IMG/VR virus record: IMGVR_UViG_3300046000_004287
Location: 1 to 23,948 of that record
Strand: one strand, 5' to 3'
DNA length: 23,948 nt
Origin: a virus
Shown here: piece by piece, positions 7,767 through 23,948 of the stretch
How the letters are laid out: each line of letters opens with the position of its first letter
Numbering within the stretch: position 1 is the stretch's first letter
The notes under the pieces: model-generated
What the model was told of the DNA's origin: nothing
What the model saw: the letters and a program-made list of their open reading frames with translations, nothing else
Database searches by the model: none
Program-made: the position numbers and the translations under genes

Positions 7767-9101
7767 ATGACGACGCAAACCATTCACATACACACATTCG
7801 ATTACGGGGCATCGCTCAGCAGTGCGACACTTCGCAATGTGTCTGATGATACGCTGGTTGCGACCGCAGACACCGTAAATGAGGTAACTGCGGATTCGGG
7901 ATTGTACGCGGCTGTTTTTGGTGAGGTTTCTGTCATCGCAGCCGGGGAATATCGGCTAAGGGCAGTTGTAGGCGGAAAGCCGATCAATCGCTATGTGACA
8001 TTGGATGGGACAAATAACGAGGTAGTTGAGGCCCGAAACGAGCGCCTATCGGTACTGGACTCCGCTGCTACTGCCGCACTGGTAGACTTGATCTGGGATG
8101 AGCCATTAACAGGTGCCACGCATAATGTCGCCACGTCCTCTGGCAAACGACTGCGTCAGTCAACAGCATTCCAGCAAATCGACTCGACTGTCATTGATGC
8201 GTCTGCAACCACAACTACGTTCATCACTGGCCTCGATTCAGCGGTCGATGATTTTTACAACGACTCAATGCTGGTGTTCACCGATGGGGCACTGGCCGGA
8301 CAGGTTCGTTCGATAGTAGACTATGTGGGAGCCACAAAGACCATCGTGCTGGAGGAAGCTCTGACATCGGCTCCGGTCAACGGAGTGGCGTTTACCATCG
8401 TTTCGCTGCATATCCATCCGGTGAGTCAGATTCAGAGTGGGCTGGCGACGAGTGCTGCATTGGCTGCAGCTAAAACTATTTTAGACAAGGTTGATACCGG
8501 ACTGGTCGTCGACGGTGCTGTTTACCAGTTTACTGCGAATATGCTGGAGCTAGCACCTGCTGGTGGTGGTGGAGGTGGCGGTGACGCTACACTCGCCAAG
8601 CAAGAAGAGATACTTGCTCAATTGGATCTGGTTCAAGCTCAGACCGATCTCATCGGTACTGCCGCAGGAGCCACTACACTACTTGCTGCTGCAGTCCTAG
8701 AACCCGGAACCATTACTTCGTTCCCAGAAACTCTTACGATCGGTGATTCGTACACGGAACAGAATGGTCGTGAGATCCAGATCCCAATCGTTGACACTGA
8801 TGGTACTCCGCTATCGTCTACAGGCTCCCTGAACTTCGCTGATGCTTCTGTTACTTTCACGCTTCAACGATCCGGTGAGACTGACTCTACACGAGTCATT
8901 ACAGGTACTGCAACTTTCGTAGACCCTCCGGGTACTGGAACAGGTGCTGGTGCTCCTTACGCTGTCATTGAACTTCCTGCTTCAGAAACAGCCAAGGGAC
9001 TCAAGAAGTACAAGTACTCTGGCATCCTGACCTTTACGTGGACCGGAACAGGAACTGATGTCATGTCCTTCGAGACTGACACCGTTACATTCGACAACTA
9101 A
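7767..9101 (+). CDS. Chimeric structural/fibre protein with poly-Gly linker and C-terminal Ig-like domain
   Basis: The 444-residue protein has two parts. Residues 1-265 are beta-rich with the phrase LIWDEPLTGATHNVATSSGKRLRQ (about 107-130), often found in phage appendage proteins. Seven glycines (266-272) follow, then a helical KQEEILAQLDLVQAQTDLIG link. The last 150 residues look like a beta-sandwich (TITSFPETLTIGDSYTEQ, FTLQRSGETDST) with Gly-Thr linkers PPGTGTGAGAP and WTGTGTD. Codon style changes from GC-rich to that of the neighbouring head genes near the poly-Gly, which suggests a fusion point. Position directly before the large terminase is unusual for a fibre. Function in the virion is inferred. 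Confidence 0.62.
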   Translation: MTTQTIHIHTFDYGASLSSATLRNVSDDTLVATADTVNEVTADSGLYAAVFGEVSVIAAGEYRLRAVVGGKPINRYVTLDGTNNEVVEARNERLSVLDSAATAALVDLIWDEPLTGATHNVATSSGKRLRQSTAFQQIDSTVIDASATTTTFITGLDSAVDDFYNDSMLVFTDGALAGQVRSIVDYVGATKTIVLEEALTSAPVNGVAFTIVSLHIHPVSQIQSGLATSAALAAAKTILDKVDTGLVVDGAVYQFTANMLELAPAGGGGGGGDATLAKQEEILAQLDLVQAQTDLIGTAAGATTLLAAAVLEPGTITSFPETLTIGDSYTEQNGREIQIPIVDTDGTPLSSTGSLNFADASVTFTLQRSGETDSTRVITGTATFVDPPGTGTGAGAPYAVIELPASETAKGLKKYKYSGILTFTWTGTGTDVMSFETDTVTFDN

Positions 9102-9116
9102 GACTCGACACACCCC

Positions 9117-11009
9117 ATGTCGCTAGAACTTGAAATAGACCCAGCTTCTTCGTACATCTCAGGTAACCAGAAGATAAAGGTTCCAGATCCCATCTACGAA
9201 TTCGATAAGATGATCGGATGGAAATGGATCGAACTGAATACCTGCGACTTTCTTAGAGGCATCCCCGGATACGACCCGTTCGTTACAGCCAAAGACTATT
9301 ACTTTGACTGTGCTGAATGGGATCGTATAATTGCATTCGTAGTCAATGAGTGCTGCTTTCCAGAAGGTGAGTTAACAGGACTGCCGTACATCCCTGAACG
9401 ATGGCAGTCCAGCATCTACGCCAACTTGTTCTGCTGGAAGCATAAGGATACCCACCTCCGACGTTACCGCGAATGTTTCATATACGTTCCACGAAAGAAC
9501 AGTAAGACCTCATCGTTCGGGGCGATCATCTCGCTGATCATGTTCTTCGTAGACAAAGAGAAACGCTCACAGAACTATTGCTGTGCGGCTGATGTGGAGC
9601 AAGCCTCCAACAACTTTCGTCACTGTCAGTACATGATCGAGAACAACCCCAAGCTAATCTCCAGACTACGAGAAAAACGAGTATTCAGGTCCACACGATC
9701 TTTTGAGCATACCGATGGTGCTATCTACAAAGTCCTATCGTCTATCGCAGATACCAAGCACGGATTATCCCCCAACTTCGTGTACGTCGATGAAGTTCAC
9801 GCTCATCCCAATAGCGAGCTTATTGACGTTATGCTCACAGGAACTGCTGCCCGTACCCAACCCCTTGTACTGTACACGACCACCGCTGACTATGATCGCC
9901 CCTCAGTCTGCAACAGCCTATACGACAAAGCCAAGAACATTGCCAGTGACAAGCAGTGGGAACCAACCTTCCTGCCGGTGATCTATGAAGCCGATCTATC
10001 AGATGACTTCCGTTCAGAAAAAGTGTGGAAGAAAGCCAACCCGAATTACGGTAAGTCCATCCGTAAAGATTACTTCGAGCGTCTGGTTCGCAACGCCCAA
10101 GACAACCCTGTAGAACTTAACCGATTTCTTCGTCTTCATCTTAACGTCCGTACCAAAACAGAAACAGCTTGGATTCCATCCCACATCTGGGCCAACGGAA
10201 ACGCTAGTCCTGAAACCCCATTACTGTCGATCACTGCTATCAAAGAGTGGATGTCAAAGCACCCATTCTGGTGCAACATTGCTAACGACCAGAAATTTAC
10301 TACGGCAACTTCGGTTGACGTGTACATTGGTCGCTATCAGTTGTACTGGTCGTGGTTCATTCGTCAGGTTGAATTCCTACAAGAAGAAGAGTGTTACGCT
10401 GGATTCGACAACGCTTCGGTGAACGATATTGCATCACTGAACTTGTGGTTTCCTAAGTACGGTGTTATGCTGCACTGGGGCTGGTGTCCTGCAACCTCCA
10501 TATACCAGCGATCTCAGGAACAGAACCTACCTTACAGTCAGTGGTGGGAATCAGGTGTCATCAATGCAACATCCCCTCTGGATACAGTCGATGAGAACGC
10601 AATCATTACTGCCATGCTTGGGGATGGAAACAACAAAGGTATCCTTTCCCATTTCTCCGGTTGTCGAGAAATATGCTTCGACCGCTGGGGATCACATCAT
10701 ATTTACACTACCCTCAAGCAATACGGTTTTCCAGCTAGAGCTTACCCCCAGTCCTTTGCCGGAATGAATGAGCCTTGCCGTCGAATGGAAGCGTTGGCTA
10801 TCGACCACCAATTCCAGCATGGCGGACACCCTGTCCTTGATTGGATGATCGGAAACGTAGTTATCGTGCAGTCCAGAGATGGACAACGCAGACCGGACAG
10901 ATCGAAGTCTACAAACAAGATCGACGGTATCGTAGCGGGGTTAATGGCCATGGGAGCATGGATGTACCCTGAAGTTGAAACCATCACAGAAATCCGTGGT
11001 TTGAAATAG
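9117..11009 (+). CDS. Terminase large subunit, HK97 type
   Basis: ATPase and nuclease of the DNA packaging motor, acting at the portal. In 630 residues, the ATPase has a Walker A-like VPRKNSKT (124-131) and Walker B FVYVDE (221-226), followed by a TTT coupling motif (254-256). After AWIP (351-354) the nuclease starts at GFDNAS..ND (429-437), and ends with the family-typical DWMIGNVVIVQSRDGQRRPDRSKSTNKIDGIVA. The distance between AWIP and the nuclease motif, about 70 residues, is longer than I expect for this family. No ribosome site is clear before the ATG at 9117. Its partner small subunit is at 499. Confidence 0.93.
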   Translation: MSLELEIDPASSYISGNQKIKVPDPIYEFDKMIGWKWIELNTCDFLRGIPGYDPFVTAKDYYFDCAEWDRIIAFVVNECCFPEGELTGLPYIPERWQSSIYANLFCWKHKDTHLRRYRECFIYVPRKNSKTSSFGAIISLIMFFVDKEKRSQNYCCAADVEQASNNFRHCQYMIENNPKLISRLREKRVFRSTRSFEHTDGAIYKVLSSIADTKHGLSPNFVYVDEVHAHPNSELIDVMLTGTAARTQPLVLYTTTADYDRPSVCNSLYDKAKNIASDKQWEPTFLPVIYEADLSDDFRSEKVWKKANPNYGKSIRKDYFERLVRNAQDNPVELNRFLRLHLNVRTKTETAWIPSHIWANGNASPETPLLSITAIKEWMSKHPFWCNIANDQKFTTATSVDVYIGRYQLYWSWFIRQVEFLQEEECYAGFDNASVNDIASLNLWFPKYGVMLHWGWCPATSIYQRSQEQNLPYSQWWESGVINATSPLDTVDENAIITAMLGDGNNKGILSHFSGCREICFDRWGSHHIYTTLKQYGFPARAYPQSFAGMNEPCRRMEALAIDHQFQHGGHPVLDWMIGNVVIVQSRDGQRRPDRSKSTNKIDGIVAGLMAMGAWMYPEVETITEIRGLK

Positions 11010-11017
11010 GACATCAC

Positions 11018-12829
11018 ATGGGCTGGTTTTCTCGCAAACCAAAAGATACTATCTCCAAGACCGCTGTCGGCAACTTAATCGACATCGTACTTAATACTAC
11101 GGGTACGCTGTCATGGAAGAACCTGTTTGGCGTACTGAACCACGAGAAGCAGTATACCAACAACACGACTGCTGCTCTGAAGTTGTCTGCCGTTAAGTGT
11201 GCTATCGACATTTACACCGGCATGATTGGTTCCATTCCTCGTCGTATGTACGCACTGGAAGCTGGCTCACAAGCCAAGACTAAAGTCGTACCAACAACGG
11301 ACAACCCAGCTTCACGCATCTTCTCTCATTACTTCCATCCAGAACTATCCTCCGACGACGGTCTCCTGACAATCGTCTACGATGTCCTGATGGACGGTAA
11401 CTGTTACTTCTACCGAGAGCGTGACCTCCAAGGTCGTACGTCCCGCCTGTACTACATTCACCCGTCCAGAATTACACGAGGGAACATCTCTCGTGCTTCT
11501 GGTCAGGAACAACTGTCTACAGGTCGTAAAGCTGTTCAAGGCGAACTTCTGTACCGCATTGACACAGGAGTATCCTCTCGCGACATCCGTACAGAGCCTC
11601 TGCTGCTGCCTAAGAGCGACATTGCCCACTTCAAGGGTAAAGTCCTCGATACGGAATACCACCGTGCTATCGGCTTCGTAGAGTGTTCTGAGGTGTCTCT
11701 GGATCTCTACCGTGCTTCTGAAGAGTTCGGCTGGAAGTTCTACAGTCGTGGTATCGCTACGCAGATGTTCCTGACGACAGAGAACCGACTGGCTCCTGAA
11801 GTCCTGAAGCGTCTCGAAGCCAACTTCACAGACGATCCCAACGCTCCGCTGGAAGACATCTTCCGTACCCGTATCCTCGAACAGGGACTGAAGCCTGTTC
11901 ACATGGGTATTCCGTTCCAGCATCTCCAGTTCATCGAGACTCGTGCTTTCAGCGTTGAAGACGTAGCACGCGGACTGAACATTCCACCTGCTCTGCTCCA
12001 CAGCTACATGGGAACCAAAGCTGGTGATGCTGATCTATCACAGGCAGTAGCCCTGTTTGTCCAGACGGGTATTGGTCCATTACTCTCACGCATCGCAGGT
12101 CAGTTCAAGTCGGAGCTTATCCCTCTGCCATCTCAGATGTTGTACTGCTTCGAGTTCGAGTTACTGTACCTCTACCGTAACGTCATCGACAAGTTTACTA
12201 CCGCTCTCAGAAACTTGTTTGAGATCGGCTTCATCGACAGGACTTACGGTGCTGGTCTCCTCGGTATGCACATTGATCCTAACGATGAGTCCAGTGCCTT
12301 GCGTTATGTTCCTGTTAACCTGATGACCGTCCAGCACTCGCTTCACTTGGAGGAAGGTGCTGATCTTGCCAATGACATGGCTGAAGCTCAGATCGAAACC
12401 ACCAAGAAGACTAACGAAGGTATGGTGTCTGCCGAAGAACATGCAGCAGTCACGGAGAAAGCTGAAGCAGCCAAAGCTCCATCAGGAGGCAAGATGGACA
12501 AGTCTCCTTCGGGCGACAACATCGACAAGCGTATCCGAAATGCTGAAGAGAGAGTGAAGTCGGCATTCCTTAATGTCATCAACGGTTTGAAGCAGTACGA
12601 GACTCGTGTACTTGATCAGAAGAAGCAGTCCCGTCCTGACGACTTCGATGTTGCTAAGGCTGAGTTCTACAACGATAAGTTCCACGGAATGCTGATGGAC
12701 CAGCTAGCACCTTGGAAAGACCTGATCACCATTGGTCCATCAACTCTGGACAACGTCGTCGCAGATTGGGTATCCAACCAGAAATCACCAGAAGGAATTG
12801 ACAATGAAGTCACTTGTATTGAACCGTAA
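11018..12829 (+). CDS. Portal protein, HK97 family
   Basis: Forms the dodecameric ring at one capsid vertex through which DNA enters and leaves, and to which neck proteins attach. The 603 residues include the typical HK97-portal N-terminal half (ALKLSAVKCAIDIYTGMIGSIPRRMY, then VYDVLMDGNCYFYRERD...YYIHPSRI). The clip/stem segment (AFSVEDVARGLNIPPALLHSY) and ELLYLYRNVIDKFTTALRNLFEIGFI also match. A charged C-terminal tail of about 150 residues (AEAQIETTKK...SGGKMDKSPSGDN...) is longer than in minimal portals and may serve capsid assembly. The ATG at 11018 has AGGA upstream, nine bases after the terminase. It overlaps the protease gene by 26 bases. Confidence 0.9.
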   Translation: MGWFSRKPKDTISKTAVGNLIDIVLNTTGTLSWKNLFGVLNHEKQYTNNTTAALKLSAVKCAIDIYTGMIGSIPRRMYALEAGSQAKTKVVPTTDNPASRIFSHYFHPELSSDDGLLTIVYDVLMDGNCYFYRERDLQGRTSRLYYIHPSRITRGNISRASGQEQLSTGRKAVQGELLYRIDTGVSSRDIRTEPLLLPKSDIAHFKGKVLDTEYHRAIGFVECSEVSLDLYRASEEFGWKFYSRGIATQMFLTTENRLAPEVLKRLEANFTDDPNAPLEDIFRTRILEQGLKPVHMGIPFQHLQFIETRAFSVEDVARGLNIPPALLHSYMGTKAGDADLSQAVALFVQTGIGPLLSRIAGQFKSELIPLPSQMLYCFEFELLYLYRNVIDKFTTALRNLFEIGFIDRTYGAGLLGMHIDPNDESSALRYVPVNLMTVQHSLHLEEGADLANDMAEAQIETTKKTNEGMVSAEEHAAVTEKAEAAKAPSGGKMDKSPSGDNIDKRIRNAEERVKSAFLNVINGLKQYETRVLDQKKQSRPDDFDVAKAEFYNDKFHGMLMDQLAPWKDLITIGPSTLDNVVADWVSNQKSPEGIDNEVTCIEP

Positions 12830-13538
12830 GCAGTTGCCTTCTGGTGAAACGCTGGAATGCAAGGTCACCTTCAACAAGGCTGACGAACTGCTGATCTATG
12901 ACATCATCATGCCTCAGAAGACGTATGATGGTGAGACCTTCAACTTCGCTACACCCGCCGATGTTACAGACTTCCTGAAGGATGCACCACGAGACTTCAA
13001 CGTCCGTATCAACTCTTCAGGTGGCGAAGTCGGTGCTGCTCTGGCAATGTACAATCGCTTGCTGGAACATCCCGGTAAGGTTACAACCATCGTCGACGGA
13101 TACGCATTCAGTTCTGCTGGCTGGCTGGCACTTGCTGGCTCAGAGCGACAGATATGCAATGGCGGTCTATTCATGATGCACAACCCATACCTGTACGCCA
13201 AGATCGACTCACTCAATGAGATCCAGAACGTACAGAACCGCTGGGAGTCTCACCGCAACAGCATCGTAGATATCTTCACTACCAGAACTTCTATGAACGA
13301 AGCTCAGGTGAAGACTCTTATGGAAGCTGAGACCTACATGTCTGCCTCAGAAGCAGTAACCAATGGCTTGTTCCATTCCGTCCGTAACGCTAAACCTGAT
13401 ACTGCCATCCTCAACTGCCTGCATATTCCTGACGCAGTTAAGAATCGAGCAGACGTTTCTATTGCACAAAATGTAGTAGACGTAAATGCTCTTAGAATCA
13501 GGGCTTTGAACTTACGAAAGAATTTTGCAATTAAGTAG
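12804..13538 (+). CDS. Prohead protease, ClpP-like (S14 family)
   Basis: Likely cleaves the N-terminal scaffold region of the capsid protein during head maturation. In 244 residues the ClpP signatures are INSSGG (69-74, oxyanion region), VDGYAFSSAGWLAL (97-110, Ser103 nucleophile), and MMHNP (124-128, His126). AETYMSASEAVTNGL (175-189) has Glu176 where bacterial ClpP has the catalytic Asp. The ATG at 12804 is chosen for its AAGGA seven bases away; it starts inside the portal end (26-base overlap). The order portal-protease-capsid supports the role. The start at 12732 would add residues from within the portal gene and has no site. Confidence 0.88.
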   Translation: MKSLVLNRKQLPSGETLECKVTFNKADELLIYDIIMPQKTYDGETFNFATPADVTDFLKDAPRDFNVRINSSGGEVGAALAMYNRLLEHPGKVTTIVDGYAFSSAGWLALAGSERQICNGGLFMMHNPYLYAKIDSLNEIQNVQNRWESHRNSIVDIFTTRTSMNEAQVKTLMEAETYMSASEAVTNGLFHSVRNAKPDTAILNCLHIPDAVKNRADVSIAQNVVDVNALRIRALNLRKNFAIK

Positions 13539-13567
13539 TTGACGGGCTTCCGTCATGCTGTTATTCT
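13539..13567 (+). promoter_or_regulatory. Candidate promoter (or hairpin) before the major capsid gene
   Basis: TTGACG (13539-13544) is followed after 17 bases by TATTCT (13562-13567), matching five and four of six consensus positions. It directly follows the protease stop and lies 80 bases before the capsid start. The same bases form a perfect six-pair hairpin TGACGG/CCGTCA (13540-13545 with 13550-13555), so it may be an RNA processing or stop-associated hairpin instead. Confidence 0.42.
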
Positions 13568-13646
13568 TACCGTGTCAAAGGCTATGCCCACAGCAACGCA
13601 CATAAGCAGACGCCAGATGCCACATCACAATCTAGGAGGTTTTGTC

Positions 13647-15098
13647 ATGGCTTCTGCCATCGCTAATCGCGTACTCGTATTCAACGATACGCCCGCCAAA
13701 CACGACGACATCTTGAAGATGACCGTCAACCAGCTTCAGGACGAACGAACTCGTCTCATTACTGTCACCGAAGTCTTCGATGCCAAGGGCGACAAGCTCT
13801 CATCTGAAGACGCTCAGGCTTACTCAGACGCTGTGGATCGCATTGAAGCGGTTCAGAACGCACTGAGCAAGACTCCTGCCGGTCTCGCTGAGCGTAAGGC
13901 TGCACTGCTCGCCACGTCTCGTATCGCCAATGCGACAAGTGGGCTGACCTTTGACTTCTCCAAGAGTGTACACACTCGTCCAGCATGGGAAGACGACAAG
14001 GACAAGTTCGGCTTCAAGAACCAGCAGGAATACCTGGGTGCTGTTGTCAACGCCTACAAGTCTCGCAATCCAGAAGCAATCGACCCACGGTTGAAAGCTG
14101 CTGTGATGGACGCAGTAGGCTCTGACGAATTCAGCAAGGCCAACTGGGAAGCAGCAGGTATCACTGTACCTCGTGGCTTCATCAACACGGTCATGCAGCT
14201 TGAGCCAGAAGCTGACCAGCTTACGAGCAAGATGACTCGCATCCCAATGACCGCTCCAACGGTCGACATTCCTGCCCGAGTTGACAAAGACCACAGCACT
14301 TCCGTGACTGGTGGATTCGCTGTCTACCGTGGTAAGGAAACTGCTGCTCCGACGCTCAGCAAGAACGCCATGGAGATGATCACACTGAAGGCACATGAAC
14401 TGAACGGTGCTGCTGCAGCAACCAATCAGTTGATGGCTGACAGTCCTCTCTCTATCGCTGCTCTGATTGATCAGGGACTGCGTCAGGAAGCTCGCTCTTA
14501 CCGCATCAACGAACTGTTGAACGGTAACGGCATCGGTCGACCTCTGGGTATGTTGCACTCCAGCAACGATGCATTGCTGACTGTTCTCCGTGAAAGCGGC
14601 CAGTCAACATCTGTTATCGTCAACGGTACCAACATCCTGAAGATGCGTCAGCGAGTCTGGGGTTACGAGAATGCAGTGTGGCTGTGCTCTCTGGACCTGT
14701 TCCCGACAATCGCAACGCTGCACATCGAGTCGCCAAACAACGCTGGTCTCGTGAAGCTGTTCTACCCTGCTGACTCTGCCAACCCAGACATGCTGCTCGG
14801 TCGTCCAATCATCTGGACAGAGTACATGAATGGTATCACCAGCGGTCAGGACGGCTCAGCCATCAGCGAGTGGAACGACAACTTCCTCGCTTGCGTCAAC
14901 CCAACGCAGGTACTGTACGGTGAACGCGGAACTGGAACGCTGACACGCAGCATCCACGTACGCTTCCTCGAACGCGAAGAAGTCTTCCTCTTCACCAGCT
15001 TCGACGATGCTCGCCCATGGTGGAAGACCGTCATGACTCCTGCCAAGGCTGGTCTGACTCTGTCACCATTCGTTGTCCTGTCCAAGACGACTGCATAG
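13647..15098 (+). CDS. Major capsid protein, HK97 fold
   Basis: The 483-residue protein has an N-terminal helical region of about 100 residues (DILKMTVNQLQDERTRLITVTEVFD... YSDAVDRIEAVQNALSKTPAGLAERKA) that fits a scaffold-like delta domain removed by the prohead protease. The HK97-fold body includes IPMTAPTVDIPARVD, the long spine-like helix, NELLNGNG...RPLGMLHS, LLGRPIIWTEYMN and GTLTRSIHVRFLEREEVFLFTSFDDARPWW. The ATG at 13647 has a perfect AGGAGG at 13634-13639; an upstream frame to 13539 is untranslated leader. Strong translation suits the most abundant virion protein. The hairpin at 15112 may end its transcript. Confidence 0.92.
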   Translation: MASAIANRVLVFNDTPAKHDDILKMTVNQLQDERTRLITVTEVFDAKGDKLSSEDAQAYSDAVDRIEAVQNALSKTPAGLAERKAALLATSRIANATSGLTFDFSKSVHTRPAWEDDKDKFGFKNQQEYLGAVVNAYKSRNPEAIDPRLKAAVMDAVGSDEFSKANWEAAGITVPRGFINTVMQLEPEADQLTSKMTRIPMTAPTVDIPARVDKDHSTSVTGGFAVYRGKETAAPTLSKNAMEMITLKAHELNGAAAATNQLMADSPLSIAALIDQGLRQEARSYRINELLNGNGIGRPLGMLHSSNDALLTVLRESGQSTSVIVNGTNILKMRQRVWGYENAVWLCSLDLFPTIATLHIESPNNAGLVKLFYPADSANPDMLLGRPIIWTEYMNGITSGQDGSAISEWNDNFLACVNPTQVLYGERGTGTLTRSIHVRFLEREEVFLFTSFDDARPWWKTVMTPAKAGLTLSPFVVLSKTTA

Positions 15099-15111
15099 TT
15101 CATGCAGGTTT

Positions 15112-15150
15112 GAGGGGCATGTAGTAAGGTCCACCTGAACCATGCCCCTC
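15112..15150 (+). terminator. Hairpin after the capsid gene, probable terminator or attenuator
   Basis: GAGGGGCATG (15112-15121) pairs perfectly with CATGCCCCTC (15141-15150), with a possible inner AGGT/ACCT stem. It begins 13 bases after the capsid stop. The following bases are pyrimidine-rich (TCCCTTCC) but not a clean T-run, so it may be a partial terminator or a 3' stabiliser that keeps capsid mRNA in excess. Confidence 0.58.
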
Positions 15151-15173
15151 TCCCTTCCGTGTTTCGATTCTTC

Positions 15174-15185
15174 TCCTGTACAGGA
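15174..15185. promoter_or_regulatory. Palindrome holding the ribosome site of the accessory head gene
   Basis: TCCTGTACAGGA is a perfect 12-base palindrome, and its right half contains the AGGA that should bind the ribosome for the ATG at 15195. Base pairing would hide the site, or the DNA palindrome may be an operator. It is small and could be chance. Confidence 0.3.
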
Positions 15186-15194
15186 ACAAATACT

Positions 15195-15632
15195 ATGGCT
15201 ACTCAGAAGTTCACTCACTTGTCCTCTAAGAGCCAGATCACTGCTCTTGGGACGCTCACAATGACGGGGAGCATCGCTAATGCTCACGTTATTGATATCC
15301 TGTTCGACAAAGCTATGCTGGTCATCAACGATGCTGACCTGACTGGTGCTTTGACTGTTACTGTCGCTGGCTCAACTGCCGCTGACGGGGCATCTGGTTT
15401 CACGACCATCAAGACCTGTACCTTCTCTGCTGCTCTAGCCAACATGAACATGGCAGTGGAAGTCGACAGCGAAGAAGTCAGCTACGCTCAGGACGTTGCA
15501 GGCGTTGTTTTCCTGTCAGTCGTATTCCGATTGACTGGTACCAACACCAACACGCTGGATGCTGCTGTTCAGGTTACAACCCTGCACCAGTACAGCGACC
15601 TGACTCCAACCGGAACAGGCGTCACAGCTTAG
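15195..15632 (+). CDS. Probable capsid decoration or head-accessory protein
   Basis: The 145-residue product is Thr/Ala/Gly-rich and beta-type (ITALGTLTMTGSIANAHVIDILFDKAMLVI, LTVTVAGSTAADGASG), with no charged domain, and ends in PTGTGVTA. Proteins of this size and make-up directly after the major capsid gene often decorate the capsid, but no family is recognised. The ATG at 15195 is used: AGGA lies upstream within the palindrome TCCTGTACAGGA (15174-15185), which may mask the ribosome site. A GTG at 15159 would add 12 residues but lacks support. It is bracketed by two hairpins, so its expression may be set apart from the neck genes. Confidence 0.6.
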   Translation: MATQKFTHLSSKSQITALGTLTMTGSIANAHVIDILFDKAMLVINDADLTGALTVTVAGSTAADGASGFTTIKTCTFSAALANMNMAVEVDSEEVSYAQDVAGVVFLSVVFRLTGTNTNTLDAAVQVTTLHQYSDLTPTGTGVTA

Positions 15633-15658
15633 TACAACCTTCGCAAGAGGGTAAACAG

Positions 15659-15700
15659 CCGCAGTACAGTTCAGGGGGTGGCTGTACTGCGGTTTGTCTT
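15659..15700 (+). terminator. Strong intrinsic terminator after the head-accessory gene
   Basis: CCGCAGTACAG (15659-15669) pairs perfectly with CTGTACTGCGG (15682-15692) around a 12-base loop, followed by TTTGTCTTTT. This is a standard rho-independent terminator separating the head transcript from the neck and tail genes that begin at 15714. Confidence 0.85.
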
Positions 15701-15713
15701 TTGGAGATCATTC

Positions 15714-16376
15714 ATGCCGATGTACGTTGATCTTGCCAGTGAAGCTGCACTCAGTACGATTGTGGGCACCACACTGCTGGATGCCACTAAGCGTAACATT
15801 GGCTTCGATCCAGAAACACCTACGGAACTGTTGCCAGTCGATCTGGAAGACTTACTCCACGAGTGCATCTCGATCTGCGAGAAGGAACAGTGGAGATTCA
15901 TTCTCCGTAAACCTGTTACTCTCACTCTTCCTTACGAAGCCTTCTGCAATCCCGATGGTCTGTTCTTTTTGCCATTCGGACGTGTCACTGAGATCACAAC
16001 CTTCACGTACATTAAAGACGATCTGACCACCGGAACCGTATCATCCTCCGACTACACTCTCTACACCTCAGAACCATCCAAGCTATGGGCTGAGAACTGG
16101 GAAGAAGTCTTCGAAGAGATCAACGATGAGCAACCCTACCCAATCACCATCACCTACACCACCGGCTACGCATCATACGACGCTGTACCCAAATCAACCA
16201 TCCGAGCTATCAAGATCCTCGCTTACCACTTGTTTGAGTACCGCGATGCGATCTCTGATGGCTCTGTCTCAGAACTTCCTCAAGGCTATTGTCAGCTTCG
16301 CGATCTCAACCTTCTGAATGACCATCGTGCAATCCGTTACATCACAGAAGACTGGTCGAAAGTGAGTCGTGGATGA
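15714..16376 (+). CDS. Head-tail connector, gp6/phiE125 gp8-like
   Basis: The 220-residue protein resembles the adaptor that forms a ring under the portal. It has an N-terminal helical bundle (LEDLLHECISICEKEQWRFILRKPVTLTL), a beta section with RVTEITTFTYIKDD and SSSDYTLYTSEPSKLW (about 85-120), ITITYTTGYA, and a final helix TIRAIKILAYHLFEYRDA (about 165-185). The last two follow the connector-family pattern of YxxGY followed by a long helix with YENRE. The ATG at 15714 has GGAG seven bases before it. It is the first gene after the terminator and couples to the next through an ATGA overlap. Confidence 0.78.
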   Translation: MPMYVDLASEAALSTIVGTTLLDATKRNIGFDPETPTELLPVDLEDLLHECISICEKEQWRFILRKPVTLTLPYEAFCNPDGLFFLPFGRVTEITTFTYIKDDLTTGTVSSSDYTLYTSEPSKLWAENWEEVFEEINDEQPYPITITYTTGYASYDAVPKSTIRAIKILAYHLFEYRDAISDGSVSELPQGYCQLRDLNLLNDHRAIRYITEDWSKVSRG

Positions 16377-16768
16377 ACAAGTACAATCGTCGTTCACGCC
16401 CCAATCTACGAACCATCTGCGAGTTCTGGACACCTTCCACAGTCGTCAACACATCGGGTGAACTCACACAGGAATTTACTCTTCATTACAAAGGTCCGTT
16501 CTCTCTGGAGGTGCCCCGCAAGCCAACAGAGATTACGGACTCCGGTCGTGTGGCTTCTGAACAATCTTTCATGCTCATAGGCCAATGGTGCAAACCTGCT
16601 GAGGAGATCACTGCAGGTATGTTCTGTGTCATTCCTTCTCGTCAGAAAGTATTCGCGGTTCAAGGACCAGCGACTGACCCATGGGGTGACAGGAAGAAAG
16701 TCAACATCACGATCATCGACAACGTCTCACAGCCAATCACCATTCAACTTATACCCACAATGTACTGA
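16373..16768 (+). CDS. Head closure / head-tail adaptor protein
   Basis: The 131-residue, beta-rich protein lies in the slot of the head-closure (SPP1 gp16/HK97 gp7-type) protein that plugs the neck after packaging. It begins with a basic stretch (NKYNRRSRPNLR), followed by a strand-rich barrel region in which SFMLIGQWCKPAEEITAGMFCVIPSRQKVFAVQGPATDPWGDRKK resembles the conserved core of head-tail joining proteins (a ... VxGPAxDPWG turn). It starts within the ATGA overlapping the upstream stop, and its stop overlaps the next ATG (TGATG), so the neck proteins are made in step. The family call is by position and pattern. Confidence 0.65.
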   Translation: MNKYNRRSRPNLRTICEFWTPSTVVNTSGELTQEFTLHYKGPFSLEVPRKPTEITDSGRVASEQSFMLIGQWCKPAEEITAGMFCVIPSRQKVFAVQGPATDPWGDRKKVNITIIDNVSQPITIQLIPTMY

Positions 16769-17418
16769 TGGCTAAACCATTCTTCTCAATCAAGTTCGAC
16801 ATGCCTGCTGAGGTGATCAACGGCTTCCCCAAGTTCGTTGGTACGCTTCGCAGGCACATCGTACGTCAAGCATTGAGAAGTGCATTACTTCCATCCAGAA
16901 ACTCTTTGAAGTCTAAGCTGATGGCTCTCCCCCGTGAGTCTAAGCAGTCCTCTGGTGCTACCTACCGTGCGTTAGTGTCCAAATACAAGAACGCTCGCAA
17001 CAACCCTGATCGGTTCTACGGGATCATCGGAGTCAACAACAAGTACATCGAAGCCACAACGCTGGAGAAGTCCCCCCTCTACGCAAAAGCAATCCAGCGA
17101 CAGGTCTCATTCGGTATTCGTCAGAAACGTACAGCCGATGATGGTTCAGTGATCTACAGCAAGCGTTACCCTCGTGGTGACGTTCGCAGTAGACTTCGTA
17201 AGAAGGTGTTTGGTCCTAAGAGTGTTGGTGGCCTAAAGAAGCGTTGGCCTGCCCGTTACCTGCATCTGTGGGAAGCAGGCTTTACTCATGCTCGGAGTGG
17301 TAAGGCTTTCACAGGTCATCAGTTCTTCGCTAAGACCAAAGAAGAGACACAAGCTAAGGCTAAGGAAATCTTCCGCACCAAAGTACTGGAACACTTCCGT
17401 AAGGCATTCGGCAAATGA
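16768..17418 (+). CDS. Neck/tail completion protein, HK97 gp10-like
   Basis: The 216-residue, very basic protein has the features of the HK97 gp10 family: an N-terminal helix with HIVRQALRSALLPSRNSLKSKLMALP, a Tyr-rich middle (YRALVSKYKNARNN...FYGIIGVNN), and a C-terminal RYLHLWEAGFTHARSGKAFTGHQFFAKTKEETQ region, in which an H/Y-x-x-x-x-E-xGT motif followed by P/H-QFF..A is typical. It probably joins the tail to the neck. It is longer than most relatives (about 150 residues), owing to the basic insertion around 110-150. Start and stop both overlap neighbours (TGATG, ATGA). Confidence 0.7.
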   Translation: MAKPFFSIKFDMPAEVINGFPKFVGTLRRHIVRQALRSALLPSRNSLKSKLMALPRESKQSSGATYRALVSKYKNARNNPDRFYGIIGVNNKYIEATTLEKSPLYAKAIQRQVSFGIRQKRTADDGSVIYSKRYPRGDVRSRLRKKVFGPKSVGGLKKRWPARYLHLWEAGFTHARSGKAFTGHQFFAKTKEETQAKAKEIFRTKVLEHFRKAFGK

Positions 17419-17879
17419 GTCCATACACTTTAGATGTCGGATTACAGTCATTGATCAGCGGTGCTGTCGGAGCTACCATTCCGTGCAGCAAGTCTTCGTT
17501 CCTGCCCTCGCATGATCTGAAGACTGCCCCAGACGGTTATGTGTTCTACGACATCTCAGAGGTCACACCATTTCATTCCTCAGAAGGTCTTGCAGAGGCT
17601 AATGACTCAGAGAAGTGTAGCTTTACACTTGACGTAGCCTGTGTAGCCCATTCTAATACTCAACGTAAGGCTCTTGTTACCTCCGTGCTCGCAGTCCTTC
17701 AACCCATTGTTGCTGGCCGTCGAACACAACTCACCTCCTATGAGATAACCGGAACCAGCGTGTACATCAACTACCTGAGACTCGATTCTCAGGACGAAAC
17801 GTATGTGTTGAAAACAGGACAGTCGAATCCTGATCTGACGATGATCGTCCTGTCTTTTTCTGGTAAGGCTACCTGTTAG
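17415..17879 (+). CDS. Tail terminator-like protein
   Basis: The 154-residue protein lies between the gp10-like gene and the tail tube gene, where the tail terminator (lambda gpU/HK97 gp11-type, often DUF3168) is usual. Compatible features are an N-terminal LQSLISGAVGATIP helix and strand, a CSFTLDVACVAHSNTQRKALVTSVLAVLQPIV segment of strand plus long helix, and a C-terminal SVYINYLRLDSQDETY strand pair. The terminator ring stops tail-tube growth and docks the tail to the head. It begins in an ATGA overlap. Sequence similarity is weak, and the call leans on gene order. Confidence 0.55.
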   Translation: MSPYTLDVGLQSLISGAVGATIPCSKSSFLPSHDLKTAPDGYVFYDISEVTPFHSSEGLAEANDSEKCSFTLDVACVAHSNTQRKALVTSVLAVLQPIVAGRRTQLTSYEITGTSVYINYLRLDSQDETYVLKTGQSNPDLTMIVLSFSGKATC

Positions 17880-17888
17880 GAGGTTTTC

Positions 17889-18398
17889 ATGTCCGCACGC
17901 GATACATCACGTATCAAGATCAAGTGGTTCGAACAGACCACAGCACCAACTGGTTCAGGAGCAGCACCTGATGCTGTTGATACCGCAAGCGACGTTTACG
18001 CCTGTGTTACTGACGGTCCTACATGGTCCGGCTTCACTCGTGGGGACGTGGAAACAACTTGCTCCAATACGACACTTGACGCATGGGGGAACTTGATTCG
18101 TACCTTCCGTGCCGGTAAGCTGGTCGATCTTGGAACCATTACTTTCACTGTAGACTGGGACCCAGACGATACCAATGGTGGTCGTGAATTCGCAGCATTC
18201 TTCGACGGTCGCTCAGGTGACCTGCTCGTTGAATTCCCTGCTGAAGGAGCCGAAACCACTGGTCCAATTCTGGTCCTGACCGGATACTGCAACAAGTTTA
18301 CTCCAATGGGCACTGTACTCTCTGACGATCAGGGATCACGCTCACTGGCAGAACTTGTCTTCAAGTTGTCTGGTATTGACGTAACTGCTCCAGCTTAA
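17889..18398 (+). CDS. Major tail (tube) protein
   Basis: The 169-residue protein is the likely tail tube subunit: it lies directly before the G/GT chaperone pair, has beta-sandwich character (KLVDLGTITFTVDWDPDDTNGGREFAAFFDGRSGDLLVEFP; SRSLAELVFKLSGIDV), and has a very strong ribosome site (AGGAGG, 17878-17883, five to six bases from the ATG). That site is nearly identical to the one before the capsid gene. The TFxVDWDPDD...FFDG segment fits lambda gpV-like tube proteins. Many copies stack to form the tube around the tape measure. Confidence 0.8.
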   Translation: MSARDTSRIKIKWFEQTTAPTGSGAAPDAVDTASDVYACVTDGPTWSGFTRGDVETTCSNTTLDAWGNLIRTFRAGKLVDLGTITFTVDWDPDDTNGGREFAAFFDGRSGDLLVEFPAEGAETTGPILVLTGYCNKFTPMGTVLSDDQGSRSLAELVFKLSGIDVTAPA

Positions 18399-18445
18399 TG
18401 CTGATGGTACAACACCTCCATTCACCCCTTCTTTAGGAAACCTGT

Positions 18446-18868
18446 ATGTTGCTCAAACCTCTCAAGCGTGCCCCACTCCCATCTTCTTCTTCCTCAGAAA
18501 TTGTTGAGCCGTCAGCAGGACTCGCAACGGCATTTATTGCCAAGCTCCGTGAGTTCCCGGGATCATCTGAGACCGATGTCCAGCCTCATTACTTCTCCGG
18601 TCTCCGTGTCCTGATCTGTCTGTACGAAGACGGTAAGCCATTCCTGTCACAGTTGATCAACCACTTGTCTCAGGAGAATGCTGAGAAGTGGCCTGTCACT
18701 GTTCAGGAAGGTGTCTCTGTTCGTCAAACACTGGATGACATCGACGCTCCGTATCTGGCACGTGTTGTGGACTACTTCCTCGATATGATCAGTACGGAAC
18801 AGATGTCAGAGATCAACGCAATCCTGCGTGATACGGTCTGGACTCAGGCGGACTCCGCAAAAAACTAA
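18446..18868 (+). CDS. Tail assembly chaperone G
   Basis: The 140-residue protein is the short product of the G/GT pair, which coats the tape measure during tail assembly and is absent from the virion. It is helical after a Ser-rich N-terminus, with FSGLRVLICLYEDGKPFLSQLINHLS and YLARVVDYFLDMISTEQMSEINAILRDTVW. The gene starts at an ATG with AGGA seven bases before it. It ends ...GCA AAA AAC TAA, where the last bases are a -1 slippery heptamer, so a fraction of ribosomes continues in the -1 frame. Identity is supported mainly by the frameshift signal and position between the tube and tape measure genes. Confidence 0.82.
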   Translation: MLLKPLKRAPLPSSSSSEIVEPSAGLATAFIAKLREFPGSSETDVQPHYFSGLRVLICLYEDGKPFLSQLINHLSQENAEKWPVTVQEGVSVRQTLDDIDAPYLARVVDYFLDMISTEQMSEINAILRDTVWTQADSAKN

Positions 18869-19209
18869 TTACTCCCGACGATCCACGCTGGTTCATCTTG
18901 TTCCTGTGTAGTCGTTGGGGGAAATCCAAATCAGAGATCGAGTCTATTCCTTACTCAGAATTTTGTGAGCATCTGAACTTTTGGCGAGAGTACAGATGGG
19001 GAATGACTGATGACCTTCAGGCGATGTCGATTGCACATCAAATGAAGGTTGCCAACCCTAAGTCGTCAGCAGTTCCATGGATGATCAAGTCGTGGACTGT
19101 ACAAAAGGATTACACCTACCGTCTCAGCCGACTTGTCGCTAAACCCGTTGCTGCTATCAGGAGCGGGTTTTTTGCTATCCTGTCAGCAGTTAAGGGAATG
19201 AAGAAATGA
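18446..19209 (+). CDS. Tail assembly chaperone GT fusion made by -1 frameshift
   Basis: If ribosomes slip at 18859-18865, translation continues at 18865 in the -1 frame: CTA ATT ACT CCC and onward, adding about 114 residues (LITPDDPRWFILFLCSRWGKSKSEI...WREYRW...DDLQAMSIAHQMKVANPKS...) to the 140 of G, for about 254 in total. The extension looks like a real T domain (Trp/Tyr/Arg-rich, helical) and its frame stays open to the stop that overlaps the tape-measure ATG (ATGA, 19206-19209). No ribosome site supports separate initiation near 18898. GT links G to the tape measure and tube protein in assembly. The last 25 codons run through an intrinsic-terminator-like hairpin. Confidence 0.8.
18859..18921 (+). 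promoter_or_regulatory. Programmed -1 frameshift signal (slippery site plus stem)
   Basis: The heptamer A_AAA_AAC (18859-18865) is in the correct phase for tandem slippage and abuts the zero-frame TAA. Six bases later, CTCCCGACGA (18872-18881) can pair over its full length with TCGTTGGGGG (18912-18921), with two G-U pairs and a 30-base loop. Spacer and stem size fit known -1 signals. Confidence 0.85.
19141..19173 (+). terminator. Intrinsic-terminator-like hairpin inside the T frame
   Basis: AAACCCG (19141-19147) pairs perfectly with CGGGTTT (19164-19170), with an inner GCT/AGC possibility, and six T residues run 19168-19173. It lies within the -1 frame, 33 bases before the tape-measure start and far beyond the zero-frame stop at 18868. 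In most transcripts no ribosome would be on it; ribosomes that frameshifted would translate through it. Confidence 0.65.
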
Positions 19210-21773
19210 ATGACAGTATCCATGAGATGGCAATTAAGTTATCCGTCGATGCTGAAGGTGTATCCCGTGGCTTTCGTACTGCTGCTGAAGAGACTCGTGC
19301 CTACCAGAAAGAACTGGAACGTCTCACGTACGCAGTCAGTAAGAACGATCCTAAGCCGTATCAAGCTCATGTCGAACAGTTTGCCAAGGTCACAGAAGAA
19401 CGCCTCGCTCGTGAGAAGAAAGCTCAGGAGGAGTTCAACGCTTGGTACAACAAAGAGATGGAGCGTGAAGTAGCTGCCTTCATCGCTGCAGAGACAGCCA
19501 AAGAAGAAGCTACTAATTCTCGTATCGCTGCTGAACGTCAGGCTGCATTGTACACGCATAATATGCAGCAGCTTGCAACCGCACGTCCACTACCTACTGA
19601 AACAGAAGCTCGTGGTCAGGAGTTACTAAATCTTGAGCAGGCTATTCGAGCACGTTTTGCTTTGATGGACCAAGAGCAGCAGCGTATTCAGAACCAGATC
19701 GCAATGAACACTACGAACGCTCAGCGTTTCCAAGCTGTTCTTGAGATGGAGACTACTGCCCGAGCACAGGCCAATGCTGATCTCCGTGCCGCTATTACTG
19801 CTAGATACGCATTATTGGACGAAGAAGCTCAACTTACGCAGAACAATGCGGCCAATACTGCAGAGCTGCAGCGACTTGCCACAAGTCAGGCTGATGCGGT
19901 ACACGAGACCGAACTGACTCAACTTCGTGAGTACATCGTCCAGAAGTACGCAGCACTAGCGGAAGCAGACGCACAAGAGCAGCGTCAACTTGAGATGAAC
20001 CGTGTGAATGCCAATCGTTCACGCGAACGTGCAATGGCAGATGCCGAAGAAGACCGTGAAAGAGAATTGCGTCAGCTTCGTGAAGCTATTACTGCCCGCT
20101 ACGCTCTGGAAGACGAAGCAGATAGATTTGCACCGCAACAGCAGTCTCACGTAGACGCATTCCGTACCAATCAGATACGCGAACAGGCTAATGCACAAGC
20201 AGAAGCCAACCGCATCATGCAGCAGAATCTGACATTGAACGAGCGATATGCTCAACAACTTGCCAATCTGAATCGACTGAACACCACAGTCATTACTACC
20301 ACTGGCAGAGTAGCATTATCGACTCGTGACTTCACCAGAGCCAAGACCGCTTTAACTATTGCTACAATCAGACAGCAGCAGGCTCAAGTTGCTGCGAACG
20401 TAGCGATGGCTAACGGCTATGGTGGTGCCGCTATGGCAATCGGTCAGGCATCGTACGCTGCCGAAGACTTCATTCAGGTGCTGTCGATGGGTGGTGGGCT
20501 GAACATGGCACTCATGTCGGCATCCAACAACCTGTCTATGGTCGCTCGTGCCCTGCTCGGTACAAACGGAGCTATGTCTGCTCTTGCCGGTATCGGTATT
20601 CCAGCAGCACTCATTGGGATTGGGTTACTGGTTCGTTACTTAGTGGGCACAGAAGATGCTGCTGAAAAAGCTAAGAAGGCTCTGGAAGACTTCCGTAAGG
20701 AAATGGAAGACATCGGAAAGATGACAGACCTTCGTCAAAAATTCCAAGCTGAGTCTCGCGTTATTCAGGACATGAAGACTCGCGAAGAGATCGAAACTAA
20801 GATCACTGCCCTGAAGCAGGAGCAAAAAGACCTAGACGAAAAGATGGCTCAAGAGGAAGTGAAACGTGCTGGGGCTAATGCTGCGTATTTCGACGAGTTA
20901 TTGGGAGGGCAACAGGCTAGACTAGACTTTCTTCTGCAGATTGATAAGTCTATACATCAAGGATCTGAGGAGCAGAAACAGTCTGCTAGAGACTTGATTC
21001 TACTCTACGGAGAAGCACGCGACGCAGCCATCGCTGGTAACGAGCAGAACATGTTACAGGCGTTGCGTGAGATGCACGATCTAATGAATCGCTTTAGTAA
21101 AGAACAAACGGGTATCGTTGGTATAGACGTTGGCTTTTGGGATAACTACAAAGCCATTTTCAATGACCCAGAACTGCTTGACAGACTTGAAAGCATTTTT
21201 CATCCGAACGTGACTGATCTTCAGGAGAATCTAAAGCTCCAACAGGAAATAGCCGAAGCATTGCTCAGTAAAGATGAGCACATGACTGAGGAGCGTAAGC
21301 GACAGTTGGAGATCGCTAAAAAGTTGTTGGAAGCTCAACAGCAGATGGTACTGGTCGAAGCCGAGATTACTCGTGAACGCCAACAGCGTATGCGGAATGA
21401 TCTCGAAGAGTTGCGTATGACAGACGCTCAGAAAGAACTAAAACGCATACGTGACGCACAAGCTGCCTTCTCAGGAATTGACGACACATTTGTCGGACCA
21501 CAATTGCCTGAAGACGAAGAACAGATGATGCGTGACTTCATGCAGGCACAGCTGGCTGCGGTTCAGAAAGAAATTGCTGAGGCCACTAGACCTGTGGTTC
21601 AATCAGCGATGGAAGAAAACGGGTTCAGTGCTCAGGCTCAGGCATTCGACCAGATGCTGAAGGCTAAGTTCGAACGTGACCCACAAGCGGAAAAGCTTGA
21701 TACTCTCATCACTATCGAACGAGAGATGTTGAATGCTATCGAGAACAACGCTATGGTCCAAGTTGTTAAGTAA
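19206..21773 (+). CDS. Tape measure protein with four internal repeats
   Basis: The 855-residue protein sets tail length and fills the tube until ejection. Residues 1-135 are charged helix. About 143-335 hold four repeats of 47-51 residues, each opening with L-(R/E)-x-A-I-x-A-R-Y-A-L-like sequence (starts near residues 143, 193, 240 and 291). A central Gly/Ala/Met-rich hydrophobic region follows (about 395-480, including ALAGIGIPAALIGIGLLVRYLVG), of the kind that can insert in membranes at DNA entry. The rest is long coiled coil. If mostly helical, its length predicts a tail of roughly 130 nm by the usual 1.5 angstrom per residue rule. The ATG overlaps the GT stop. There is no lysozyme or peptidase domain that I can see. 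Confidence 0.88.
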   Translation: MNDSIHEMAIKLSVDAEGVSRGFRTAAEETRAYQKELERLTYAVSKNDPKPYQAHVEQFAKVTEERLAREKKAQEEFNAWYNKEMEREVAAFIAAETAKEEATNSRIAAERQAALYTHNMQQLATARPLPTETEARGQELLNLEQAIRARFALMDQEQQRIQNQIAMNTTNAQRFQAVLEMETTARAQANADLRAAITARYALLDEEAQLTQNNAANTAELQRLATSQADAVHETELTQLREYIVQKYAALAEADAQEQRQLEMNRVNANRSRERAMADAEEDRERELRQLREAITARYALEDEADRFAPQQQSHVDAFRTNQIREQANAQAEANRIMQQNLTLNERYAQQLANLNRLNTTVITTTGRVALSTRDFTRAKTALTIATIRQQQAQVAANVAMANGYGGAAMAIGQASYAAEDFIQVLSMGGGLNMALMSASNNLSMVARALLGTNGAMSALAGIGIPAALIGIGLLVRYLVGTEDAAEKAKKALEDFRKEMEDIGKMTDLRQKFQAESRVIQDMKTREEIETKITALKQEQKDLDEKMAQEEVKRAGANAAYFDELLGGQQARLDFLLQIDKSIHQGSEEQKQSARDLILLYGEARDAAIAGNEQNMLQALREMHDLMNRFSKEQTGIVGIDVGFWDNYKAIFNDPELLDRLESIFHPNVTDLQENLKLQQEIAEALLSKDEHMTEERKRQLEIAKKLLEAQQQMVLVEAEITRERQQRMRNDLEELRMTDAQKELKRIRDAQAAFSGIDDTFVGPQLPEDEEQMMRDFMQAQLAAVQKEIAEATRPVVQSAMEENGFSAQAQAFDQMLKAKFERDPQAEKLDTLITIEREMLNAIENNAMVQVVK

Positions 21774-21782
21774 GGAATACTC

Positions 21783-22883
21783 ATGGGTCTCAAACAGATT
21801 ATAGGATTCCTTCACGAAGCTCAGGATCTCTCAGCAACGTGGGGTGTCAACACAATCGTAGAGCAATGCCTGATCGAGATGGATTCTCCACTGGAGGATA
21901 TCATTGACGTTCAGGCTGCTCTGCCTGCGTACGACTTTGGTACTACACCAGAACCAACCTTCACGATTGGACTGTCGTACCATCCAGAACGTACTGACCT
22001 GATCCTGAAGCAGGCCAATGGTGTTCGTGTCCATCCAATGGGCAGACCATACTGGATCGTAGACCTCACCTACGAGACAGGCCAATGGCTGGACAAGTTG
22101 CTGAACAACGAGAACCAAGGTGCCGGTAATGTTGGTCGCATGAAGCGATTCGACAGCACGCCTGGTACCGGTGAACCAGCAACACAGATTATCAAGTACC
22201 CTTGGGACGAACCACCAACATGGCAGTCCAGTACTCGTCGTGTCAGAATCAACATCTTCCATGACATCAATGGTGATCCGCTGAAGCACGCTAACGGACT
22301 GCCGATACTAGAAGGCGTATCTGACGAACTTGATTTGGAAGTACATACCTTCACTTGGAACGTTGAGTACGATACGTTCACGTATAGTACAGACGTAGCT
22401 CCATTTATTGGAAGAATCAATGTCCTGTCCGTATTCGATGCTCCTATCGACCATGTATTACTAGAGTCATGTACCTGCATCGAGAACTACCGTACTGTAA
22501 ATCTGTCCGTTCCTGTAGGACAAGATGGAACAGGTGCCACAGCAACTCACCACTTTGTTACCCTCACAGCAACCTTTGTTATTGATAGGCGTACTGATTC
22601 CACACTTGGTTACTTCCGTGAAGCCAATCGCCGTGTGTCCATGCACACATTGCAGGTTATACGCGAAGGTGGATTACCTGTTGGTCTTGGACCGATTCCT
22701 GTTAACGAAAAAGGAGATGTTGCTACTTCTCCTTGGCCGCTGCGTGATGACGGCACAGCTTATCCTTACGCAACAATTGACGCAGCAGATCCGTTAACCG
22801 ACTTCGCGTTCATTGATACACTTCAACCAGAGCAGAACGACTTGACAGCATTTGCTGCTCTATATAGGTTAGCCATCCCATGA
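21783..22883 (+). CDS. Tail-tip or distal-tail protein, family not recognised
   Basis: The 366-residue protein directly follows the tape measure, where distal tail or tip-hub proteins are encoded. It is beta-rich: FTIGLSYHPERTDLILKQANGVRVHPMGRPYWIVDLTYETG (about 60-100), RRVRINIFHDINGDPLKHANGLPI, TFTWNVEYDTFTYSTDVAPFIGRINV, and HHFVTLTATFVIDRR. The repeated tendency for paired strands suggests a tube-like or Ig-like fold. Short Gly-Thr loops (STPGTGEPA, QDGTGATA) recur. The ATG has AAGGA upstream. Its stop overlaps the next start (ATGA). I cannot assign it to a named family. Confidence 0.65.
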   Translation: MGLKQIIGFLHEAQDLSATWGVNTIVEQCLIEMDSPLEDIIDVQAALPAYDFGTTPEPTFTIGLSYHPERTDLILKQANGVRVHPMGRPYWIVDLTYETGQWLDKLLNNENQGAGNVGRMKRFDSTPGTGEPATQIIKYPWDEPPTWQSSTRRVRINIFHDINGDPLKHANGLPILEGVSDELDLEVHTFTWNVEYDTFTYSTDVAPFIGRINVLSVFDAPIDHVLLESCTCIENYRTVNLSVPVGQDGTGATATHHFVTLTATFVIDRRTDSTLGYFREANRRVSMHTLQVIREGGLPVGLGPIPVNEKGDVATSPWPLRDDGTAYPYATIDAADPLTDFAFIDTLQPEQNDLTAFAALYRLAIP

Positions 22884-23809
22884 GCAATAACCGTCTCGGC
22901 ATTTACAGCGAAGGTGATGCACGCGAGATACACAAACGTGTGCTCGGTCACTCATTGCCTTTACCAGAACTCGGCCAAGCCAAACAGTACACCGTACAAA
23001 ATATGTTGTACTATGCTTTGTTGACTGAAGATCTCAACGCCGCTACAGATCCAGAGACAGGGTACACTTCTGCCGAATGCCGCGTATTGCGATATATTCA
23101 GCCTATAAGTGCTACCACGCTTGATATGGAAATGGCCACAGGCGATATCAGCCTGCTCACAATTACTAACCGCTACGTATCGTTCTCAGCATCAGCAGGC
23201 GATCTGCTTCTTATCATTCGTAACGGTGCTGAGTGGTCCCCTGTTACTGCAGTAGCTTCTTCTCAGAAACATGCGACGATCTTATCGTGTCTGGGTAACG
23301 GCTACTACTCTGCTGCACTATCGACCAATCCAACATTCGATCTGCCATCAACTACTGGTACAGGCACTGACACAGGAACAGGATCAGGCCAGTACAACGA
23401 ATGCAGTCCTTGTCAGTGGATCACAGGAGAGAACACTGGGACAGATGCTGCAGCGTGTGGTAGCCTTCAGCAACCATCTCGTGTATCTGTTCCGGGAGAC
23501 GGCAGTACTATTTATTGCTATGACCCACGCAAGCTAACGCTGTCGACTGGTGCCCACATCATTGTTACGAACATGGGCGATACTGTTGTCAACCCAGAAC
23601 CCGGAACTGGTACAGGTACCGGAACTGCAATCGACACGATTCCACTTTACATGATCCTGACAGGTAACTATGATCTTGTGGGAATACCCGACAGGTTCTA
23701 CGAGTGCTGTGACAACGTTGTTACTCTCACTCGCTGCGATACGTACATTGTAGAAGGTTTCTACTGCCCGGGTGTTCAAGTCGATTGTCCCGGTACAGGA
23801 TCAGCATAA
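22880..23809 (+). CDS. Tail-tip protein with Gly-Thr linkers and cysteine-rich C-terminal half
   Basis: The 309-residue protein has an N-terminal helical part (EIHKRVLGHSLPLPELGQAKQYTVQNMLYYALLTEDLNAATDPETG), a beta domain (about 65-150), and a linker of TTGTGTDTGTGSG (about 157-169). Its last 140 residues contain nine cysteines (ECSPCQW, AACGS, IYCYD, YECCDN, TRCDTY, FYCPG, VDCPG), interrupted by a second linker, EPGTGTGTGTA. The Cys pattern could form disulphides or bind metal in the mature tail. It may form part of the tip or receptor-binding apparatus, which is inferred from position. It begins in an ATGA overlap, and its TAA overlaps the next ATG. Confidence 0.65.
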   Translation: MSNNRLGIYSEGDAREIHKRVLGHSLPLPELGQAKQYTVQNMLYYALLTEDLNAATDPETGYTSAECRVLRYIQPISATTLDMEMATGDISLLTITNRYVSFSASAGDLLLIIRNGAEWSPVTAVASSQKHATILSCLGNGYYSAALSTNPTFDLPSTTGTGTDTGTGSGQYNECSPCQWITGENTGTDAAACGSLQQPSRVSVPGDGSTIYCYDPRKLTLSTGAHIIVTNMGDTVVNPEPGTGTGTGTAIDTIPLYMILTGNYDLVGIPDRFYECCDNVVTLTRCDTYIVEGFYCPGVQVDCPGTGSA

Positions 23810-23948
23810 TGCCCTCCAATCAACAACAGGCTTTACTCCAGTGTGGCTGCGGCTGCGTAGGATCATGTACAGGATGCTGCTTCTGCTCCCAGTCTCCAGC
23901 GACAAATGCGGACTACGTGATCGACGCTCCCAACTGTGCTGCTCTCGA
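23809..23948 (+). CDS. Cysteine-rich protein, cut by the window edge
   Basis: An ATG at 23809 overlaps the TAA of the previous gene (TAATG), and its frame is open to the end of the window. The visible 46 residues begin MPSNQQQALLQ and then have seven cysteines within 15 residues (CGCGCVGSCTGCCFC), followed by SQSPATNADYVIDAPNC. No standard zinc-finger or ferredoxin spacing is obvious. With the preceding Cys-rich tail protein it may form a disulphide- or metal-stabilised tail structure. Function unknown; the C-terminus is outside the window. Confidence 0.6.
   Translation, partial: MPSNQQQALLQCGCGCVGSCTGCCFCSQSPATNADYVIDAPNCAAL

Follow-up and report, generated by a model that had tools for sequence, protein, structure and literature searches.

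One of the closest described counterparts of the locus analysed here is the -1 frameshift between G and GT of phage lambda, where only a minority of ribosomes shift frame. Lambda T has a hairpin of its own, unrelated to the one described below and shallowly conserved, which lies in the T frame at about 10280-10310 (679-710 of our locus L135) and consists of GGGCTGA..TCAGCCT followed by GTTTTTC, a U5 run. Its arms are identical in PhiR12_2, and it is absent from N15 and mEp043; the idea that such a hairpin is a general feature of lambda-type T genes was rejected on this pattern. In phage HK97 a putative terminator is annotated immediately ahead of the tape measure gene, with a stem (ACCCGCT..AGCGGGT) similar to ours, but it is intergenic, behind the moron gene gp15 and outside T. 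The annotated putative terminator of N15 follows the major tail protein gene and is likewise outside T. T7 gene 10 offers a case of a shift site with a terminator-like hairpin at a distance of more than 200 nt on its 3' side, and CCCC in that terminator is reported to matter for frameshifting (PMC5009743). For the terminator tR2 in E. coli, translation across the terminator suppresses termination, and a stop codon well upstream relieves the suppression (PMC4824070). A literature search, with most subscription journals outside its coverage, turned up no description of a T hairpin of the present kind.

The window, meaning the whole stretch of DNA that was analysed, is a 23,948-base record of an uncultured virus and contains a siphophage-like late operon. 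The features needed below are as follows.

9117-11009, terminase, by profile match
13539-15098, HK97-type major capsid protein, by profile match
15657-15694, plus strand, second conserved hairpin of the late operon, intergenic, with a covarying stem and a U-rich tail that is kept
17889-18398, presumed major tail protein open reading frame, by position only
18446-18868, plus strand, open reading frame of a G-like tail assembly chaperone, zero frame
18859-18865, plus strand, -1 slippery heptamer A_AAA_AAC, read directly and in the right phase for the G frame
18866-18868, zero-frame G stop codon TAA
18865-19209, plus strand, T part, in the -1 frame only, its protein conserved in IMG/VR loci
18874-18882 paired with 18911-18919, plus strand, predicted frameshift-stimulator stem
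19141-19170, plus strand, conserved RNA hairpin of 13 positions and a 4-nt loop, T codons 93-102 (KPVAAIRSGF)
19168-19173, plus strand, six-T tract, sharing three Ts with the stem and unconserved in the family
19206-21773, plus strand, presumed tape measure gene, a large open reading frame assigned by position only, with an ATGA overlap with T

Neither window positions 9000-23948, compared as DNA, nor the T protein matched anything in a collection of known phages, and the genome contigs searched held no relative of the window phage. On the minus strand at 1324-1927 lies a recombinase-like gene whose two open frames overlap (1324-1752 and 1676-1927), the first of which matches Pfam Recombinase; these are perhaps two genes, or one gene that is broken or mis-assembled.

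The locus resembles lambda G/GT in its gene order, in its heptamer (A_AAA_AAC or G_GGA_AAC) and in a T frame that overlaps the tape measure start, whereas lambda T has no significant sequence match to the T of the window. The G assignment is based on a position between the presumed major tail protein and the presumed tape measure frames and on the -1 site at its end; the G frame found no PHROG or Pfam match in a profile search, and its AlphaFold model is of poor quality. T shows weak, sub-threshold matches to Phage_tail_T and to PHROG 337 'tail protein', and a fold search with T returned nothing significant. Because this similarity is only sub-threshold, the identity of G and T depends chiefly on the layout. 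Reading in the -1 frame continues to the TGA at 19207-19209 and overlaps the tape measure ATG at 19206-19208 by four bases. At the same junction in relatives a 4-nt overlap is commonest; in the rest the two frames share 1-29 nt or are separated by a short gap.

An earlier note on this DNA had described a slippery site, a stem and a zero-frame stop at 18868, and all three are present. Nearly all relatives retain the A_AAA_AAC heptamer; in L111, L112 and L113 (around 3985-4000) G_GGA_AAC stands in the same place. The stimulator stem, predicted by RNAalifold on alignment A5, begins 8 nt 3' of the heptamer. It is paired in 95.7% of cells, against 93.6% in shuffles, and one pair shows a double change from A-U to G-C in five rows. 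Since a downstream stem is predicted from the alignment and compensatory changes occur, the frameshift site looks genuine.

The hairpin lies 272 nt downstream of the G stop and about 35 nt before the tape measure start of the window. The same note had reported a perfect AAACCCG/CGGGTTT hairpin with six Ts inside the -1 frame. The outer arms are indeed exact (19141-19147 and 19164-19170), and the structure can now be drawn more fully, as 13 paired positions comprising 12 pairs and one G-G mismatch around a CTAT loop, with three of the Ts belonging to the stem. From the single sequence the hairpin is unremarkable, and its significance comes from conservation. The window has one match to the pattern AAACCCN{10,24}GGGTTT, and 100 shuffles produced none, but stems with at least 12 of 13 pairs number 14 in the window and 2-18 in 12 shuffles, so that the size of the stem is within chance. 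A generic terminator scan of the window gave no more sites than shuffled sequence, and Rfam covariance models run over 18300-19400 gave no match up to E = 1. T contains a second, weaker stem at 18970-18999 (12 of 13 pairs, -11.5 kcal/mol in a 30-nt fold).

Relatives of T were collected from IMG/VR scans down to about 50% amino-acid identity, giving 19 distinct versions. Whether related phages keep the hairpin and its phase in the T frame had been posed as a check in the earlier note, and 18 of the 19 keep both, with 12-13 of the 13 pairs. All 18 encode K-P-x6-G-F in identical phase, and in nearly all relatives the hairpin is 276 nt from T codon 1. Predicted stability in the lineages that carry it runs from -11 to -22 kcal/mol. 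A T tree that omits the hairpin codons resolves poorly, into a bush with about a dozen deep lineages. The sole relative found without the hairpin, whether through loss or because it never had one, is L119 (IMGVR_UViG_3300048076_000002), which retains the slippery site and a similar peptide, QPVSSIRAGF, and forms 7 pairs (P 0.40); it is a useful natural control. When synonymous codons were drawn according to the usage of the window, applied to all relatives, the resampled sequences averaged 6.7-8.7 pairs, and P was at most 0.0014 for each of the 18 versions, related versions not being independent of one another.

The hairpin uses codons (CCC, GGG, AAA and TTT) that are rare in the phage of the window. 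CCC accounts there for 13% of proline codons and GGG for 7% of glycine codons, and both are invariant in 16 of 16 hairpin-bearing representatives. The windows of highest synonymous constraint in T coincide with the hairpin codons. Both sides have changed in four of the pairs, and the covariation score reaches 0.244, where shuffles give 0.125 and slid controls no more than 0.122. For example, the window clade uses GCT..AGG within KPVAAIRSGF and L043 and L049-L051 use GCG..CGT, leaving pair and peptide intact. The alignment contains 20 G-U cells and 3 A-C cells, an excess arguing that the selected structure is the sense-strand RNA; a DNA operator was rejected because it fits this excess less well. 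Conservation, rare codons, compensatory changes and the G-U excess, together with the similar peptide of L119 that lacks the hairpin, show by sequence comparison that an RNA hairpin inside T is under purifying selection on the sense strand.

That amino-acid conservation by itself accounts for the hairpin, as a by-product or by chance, is barely credible. The K, P, G and F residues are conserved at the protein level, as this explanation would have it, but the resampling of codons, the use of rare ones, the compensatory changes at synonymous sites and the case of L119 exclude it in practice. A peptide that simply dictates the hairpin was also discarded, since L092, which a pattern search picked up, has KPVFAIRSGF in an unrelated frame and forms no hairpin. 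Nor is this a repeat family or mobile element: in 18 of 19 phage records a covariance model of the hairpin finds a single site, and in L119 none, the weaker matches at the same places being the opposite strand.

What the family shares beyond the stem is less uniform. The tail after the stem reads TTTTTTGC in the window clade and TTTTTCGC, TTTCTTGC, TTCTTTGC, TTTATGGC, TTTATGTC, TTTCGTGC and TTTGAGGC in other lineages. Six of the eight nucleotides are T in the window clade, as against 3-4 of 8 in about half of the loci; the T-tract is missing from about half of the lineages (TTTATGG, TTTCGTG, TTTGAGG) with the stem kept, and some of these, such as L052, have a perfect 13-bp stem. The likeness to intrinsic terminators and attenuators is partial: shared are a G+C-containing stem, flanking A- and U-tracts and, in the window clade, a U6 tail, but the T hairpin is within a coding sequence and about half of the lineages keep its stem with no U-tract. 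A strong, frameshift-gated terminator is thus unlikely as the function common to the family. A weak terminator stays viable, because a d'Aubenton-Carafa-type score exceeds zero in every one of 25 loci other than L042, L053 and L119, and because TTT is favoured directly after GF. This phenylalanine codon is TTT in the window, L037, L044, L110 and L114 and TTC in L039, whereas elsewhere in T TTC is the commoner (52 against 18 TTT); the preference is a small count from few lineages. Transcriptional slippage on the six Ts, fusing T with the tape measure protein, was rejected on the unconserved T run and a TAA at 19191-19193 in the tape measure frame.

Taken over the family, a weak terminator, a pause site or an mRNA-end barrier fits better than a strong terminator. 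The reading we prefer, tentatively and with a probability of roughly 0.4, is that the hairpin reduces expression of the tape measure gene and the tail genes after it, compared with the major tail protein and G, and most probably does so by acting as a weak terminator or an RNA polymerase pause site. T fills the entire gap between G and the tape measure gene, and this would explain why the hairpin is placed within T. It could fold there because most ribosomes, those that finish G, would leave at 18868, provided that frameshifting is a minority event as in lambda. On this model the frameshift makes the site possible and would not tune output. The second operon hairpin (15657-15694) occupies a homologous place in five relatives, just upstream of a ribosome-binding site whose gene probably starts at about 15714. 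The presence of this second element, U-rich tail included, at a different operon step speaks for the weak terminator or pause, as do the annotated putative terminators of HK97 and N15 near these genes, and by analogy with lambda, from which the stoichiometric reasoning on tail proteins is taken, the two hairpins together suggest operon steps that mark drops in protein demand. Against a weak terminator is the absence of the U-tract from about half of the lineages, which is poor for an intrinsic terminator, and the lack of a hairpin in L119. In lambda, moreover, late transcription is antiterminated, and if the same held here a terminator would be ignored.

Several other functions would also be served by a conserved stem. 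It may shield the 3' end of the capsid-tail mRNA from exonucleases after cleavage downstream, or may itself be cut, so that mRNA for the major tail protein and G outlasts that for the tape measure. Such a barrier or processing site would make the U-tract unnecessary, in keeping with a stem that is conserved where the tract is not, with the perfect stems of L052 and others, and with the position of the second hairpin, likewise between genes. It would have no need, however, of the TTT favoured beyond the stem in F103 lineages, and 13 bp is short for RNase III; we regard it as possible, though doubtful. Improbable, in our judgement, is a role in translation, with the hairpin gating initiation at 19206 or coupling it to the arrival of GT ribosomes. 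From the end of the hairpin to the start codon there are 32-38 nt in most lineages, and in the majority T stop and start codon share 4 nt, yet the spacing may merely mirror a conserved T length, the hairpin is upstream of the expected 30S footprint, and L044 and L048 have a spacing of 54 nt and a GTG start. A long-range stimulator of the frameshift, on the model of T7 gene 10 (PMC5009743), is very improbable. The distance of the hairpin from T codon 1 is constant in nearly all relatives, but an almost indel-free T would give that constancy anyway, a conserved local stimulator stem is already there, and the T7 mechanism itself lacks an explanation. T7 gene 10 differs also in being a capsid gene whose distant element is reported to affect frameshifting.

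The weak terminator or pause that we prefer differs from the proposal of the earlier note, in which ribosomes that shift frame override a strong terminator and the supply of tape measure mRNA tracks how often they shift. Its selected hairpin, within the T frame, of fixed phase and 3' of the G stop, is supported; a terminator strong enough for such tracking is not supported as the conserved function, given the missing T-tracts. In favour of the proposal, the window clade has a 12-pair stem and U6, the G stop is 272 nt upstream, and in E. coli a terminator is suppressed when ribosomes translate across it (PMC4824070), so that GT ribosomes could override the hairpin. Readthrough could track frameshifting only with near-complete termination, which is unlikely with the tails of half the lineages, and the leak from incomplete termination would probably exceed a frameshift of a few per cent; we regard the full proposal as quite unlikely. 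Within the window's own clade, ribosome-dependent readthrough at the U6 tail, coupled to frameshifting, is possible and not favoured; more probably the frameshift permits the hairpin to fold rather than tunes it. A broader form, in which GT ribosomes overriding termination or pausing, plus stop-start coupling at 19206, tie tape measure and tail-tip expression to the number of ribosomes making GT, is also unlikely. If true, one frameshift event would set both the chaperone ratio and the tape measure supply.

The T hairpin clearly exemplifies selection on an RNA element within a frame reached only by ribosomes that have shifted, its compensatory changes sparing the protein. It suggests that control of expression can reside at GT/tape measure junctions, and through it the setting of tail-protein ratios within one phage operon becomes testable by a few synonymous changes.
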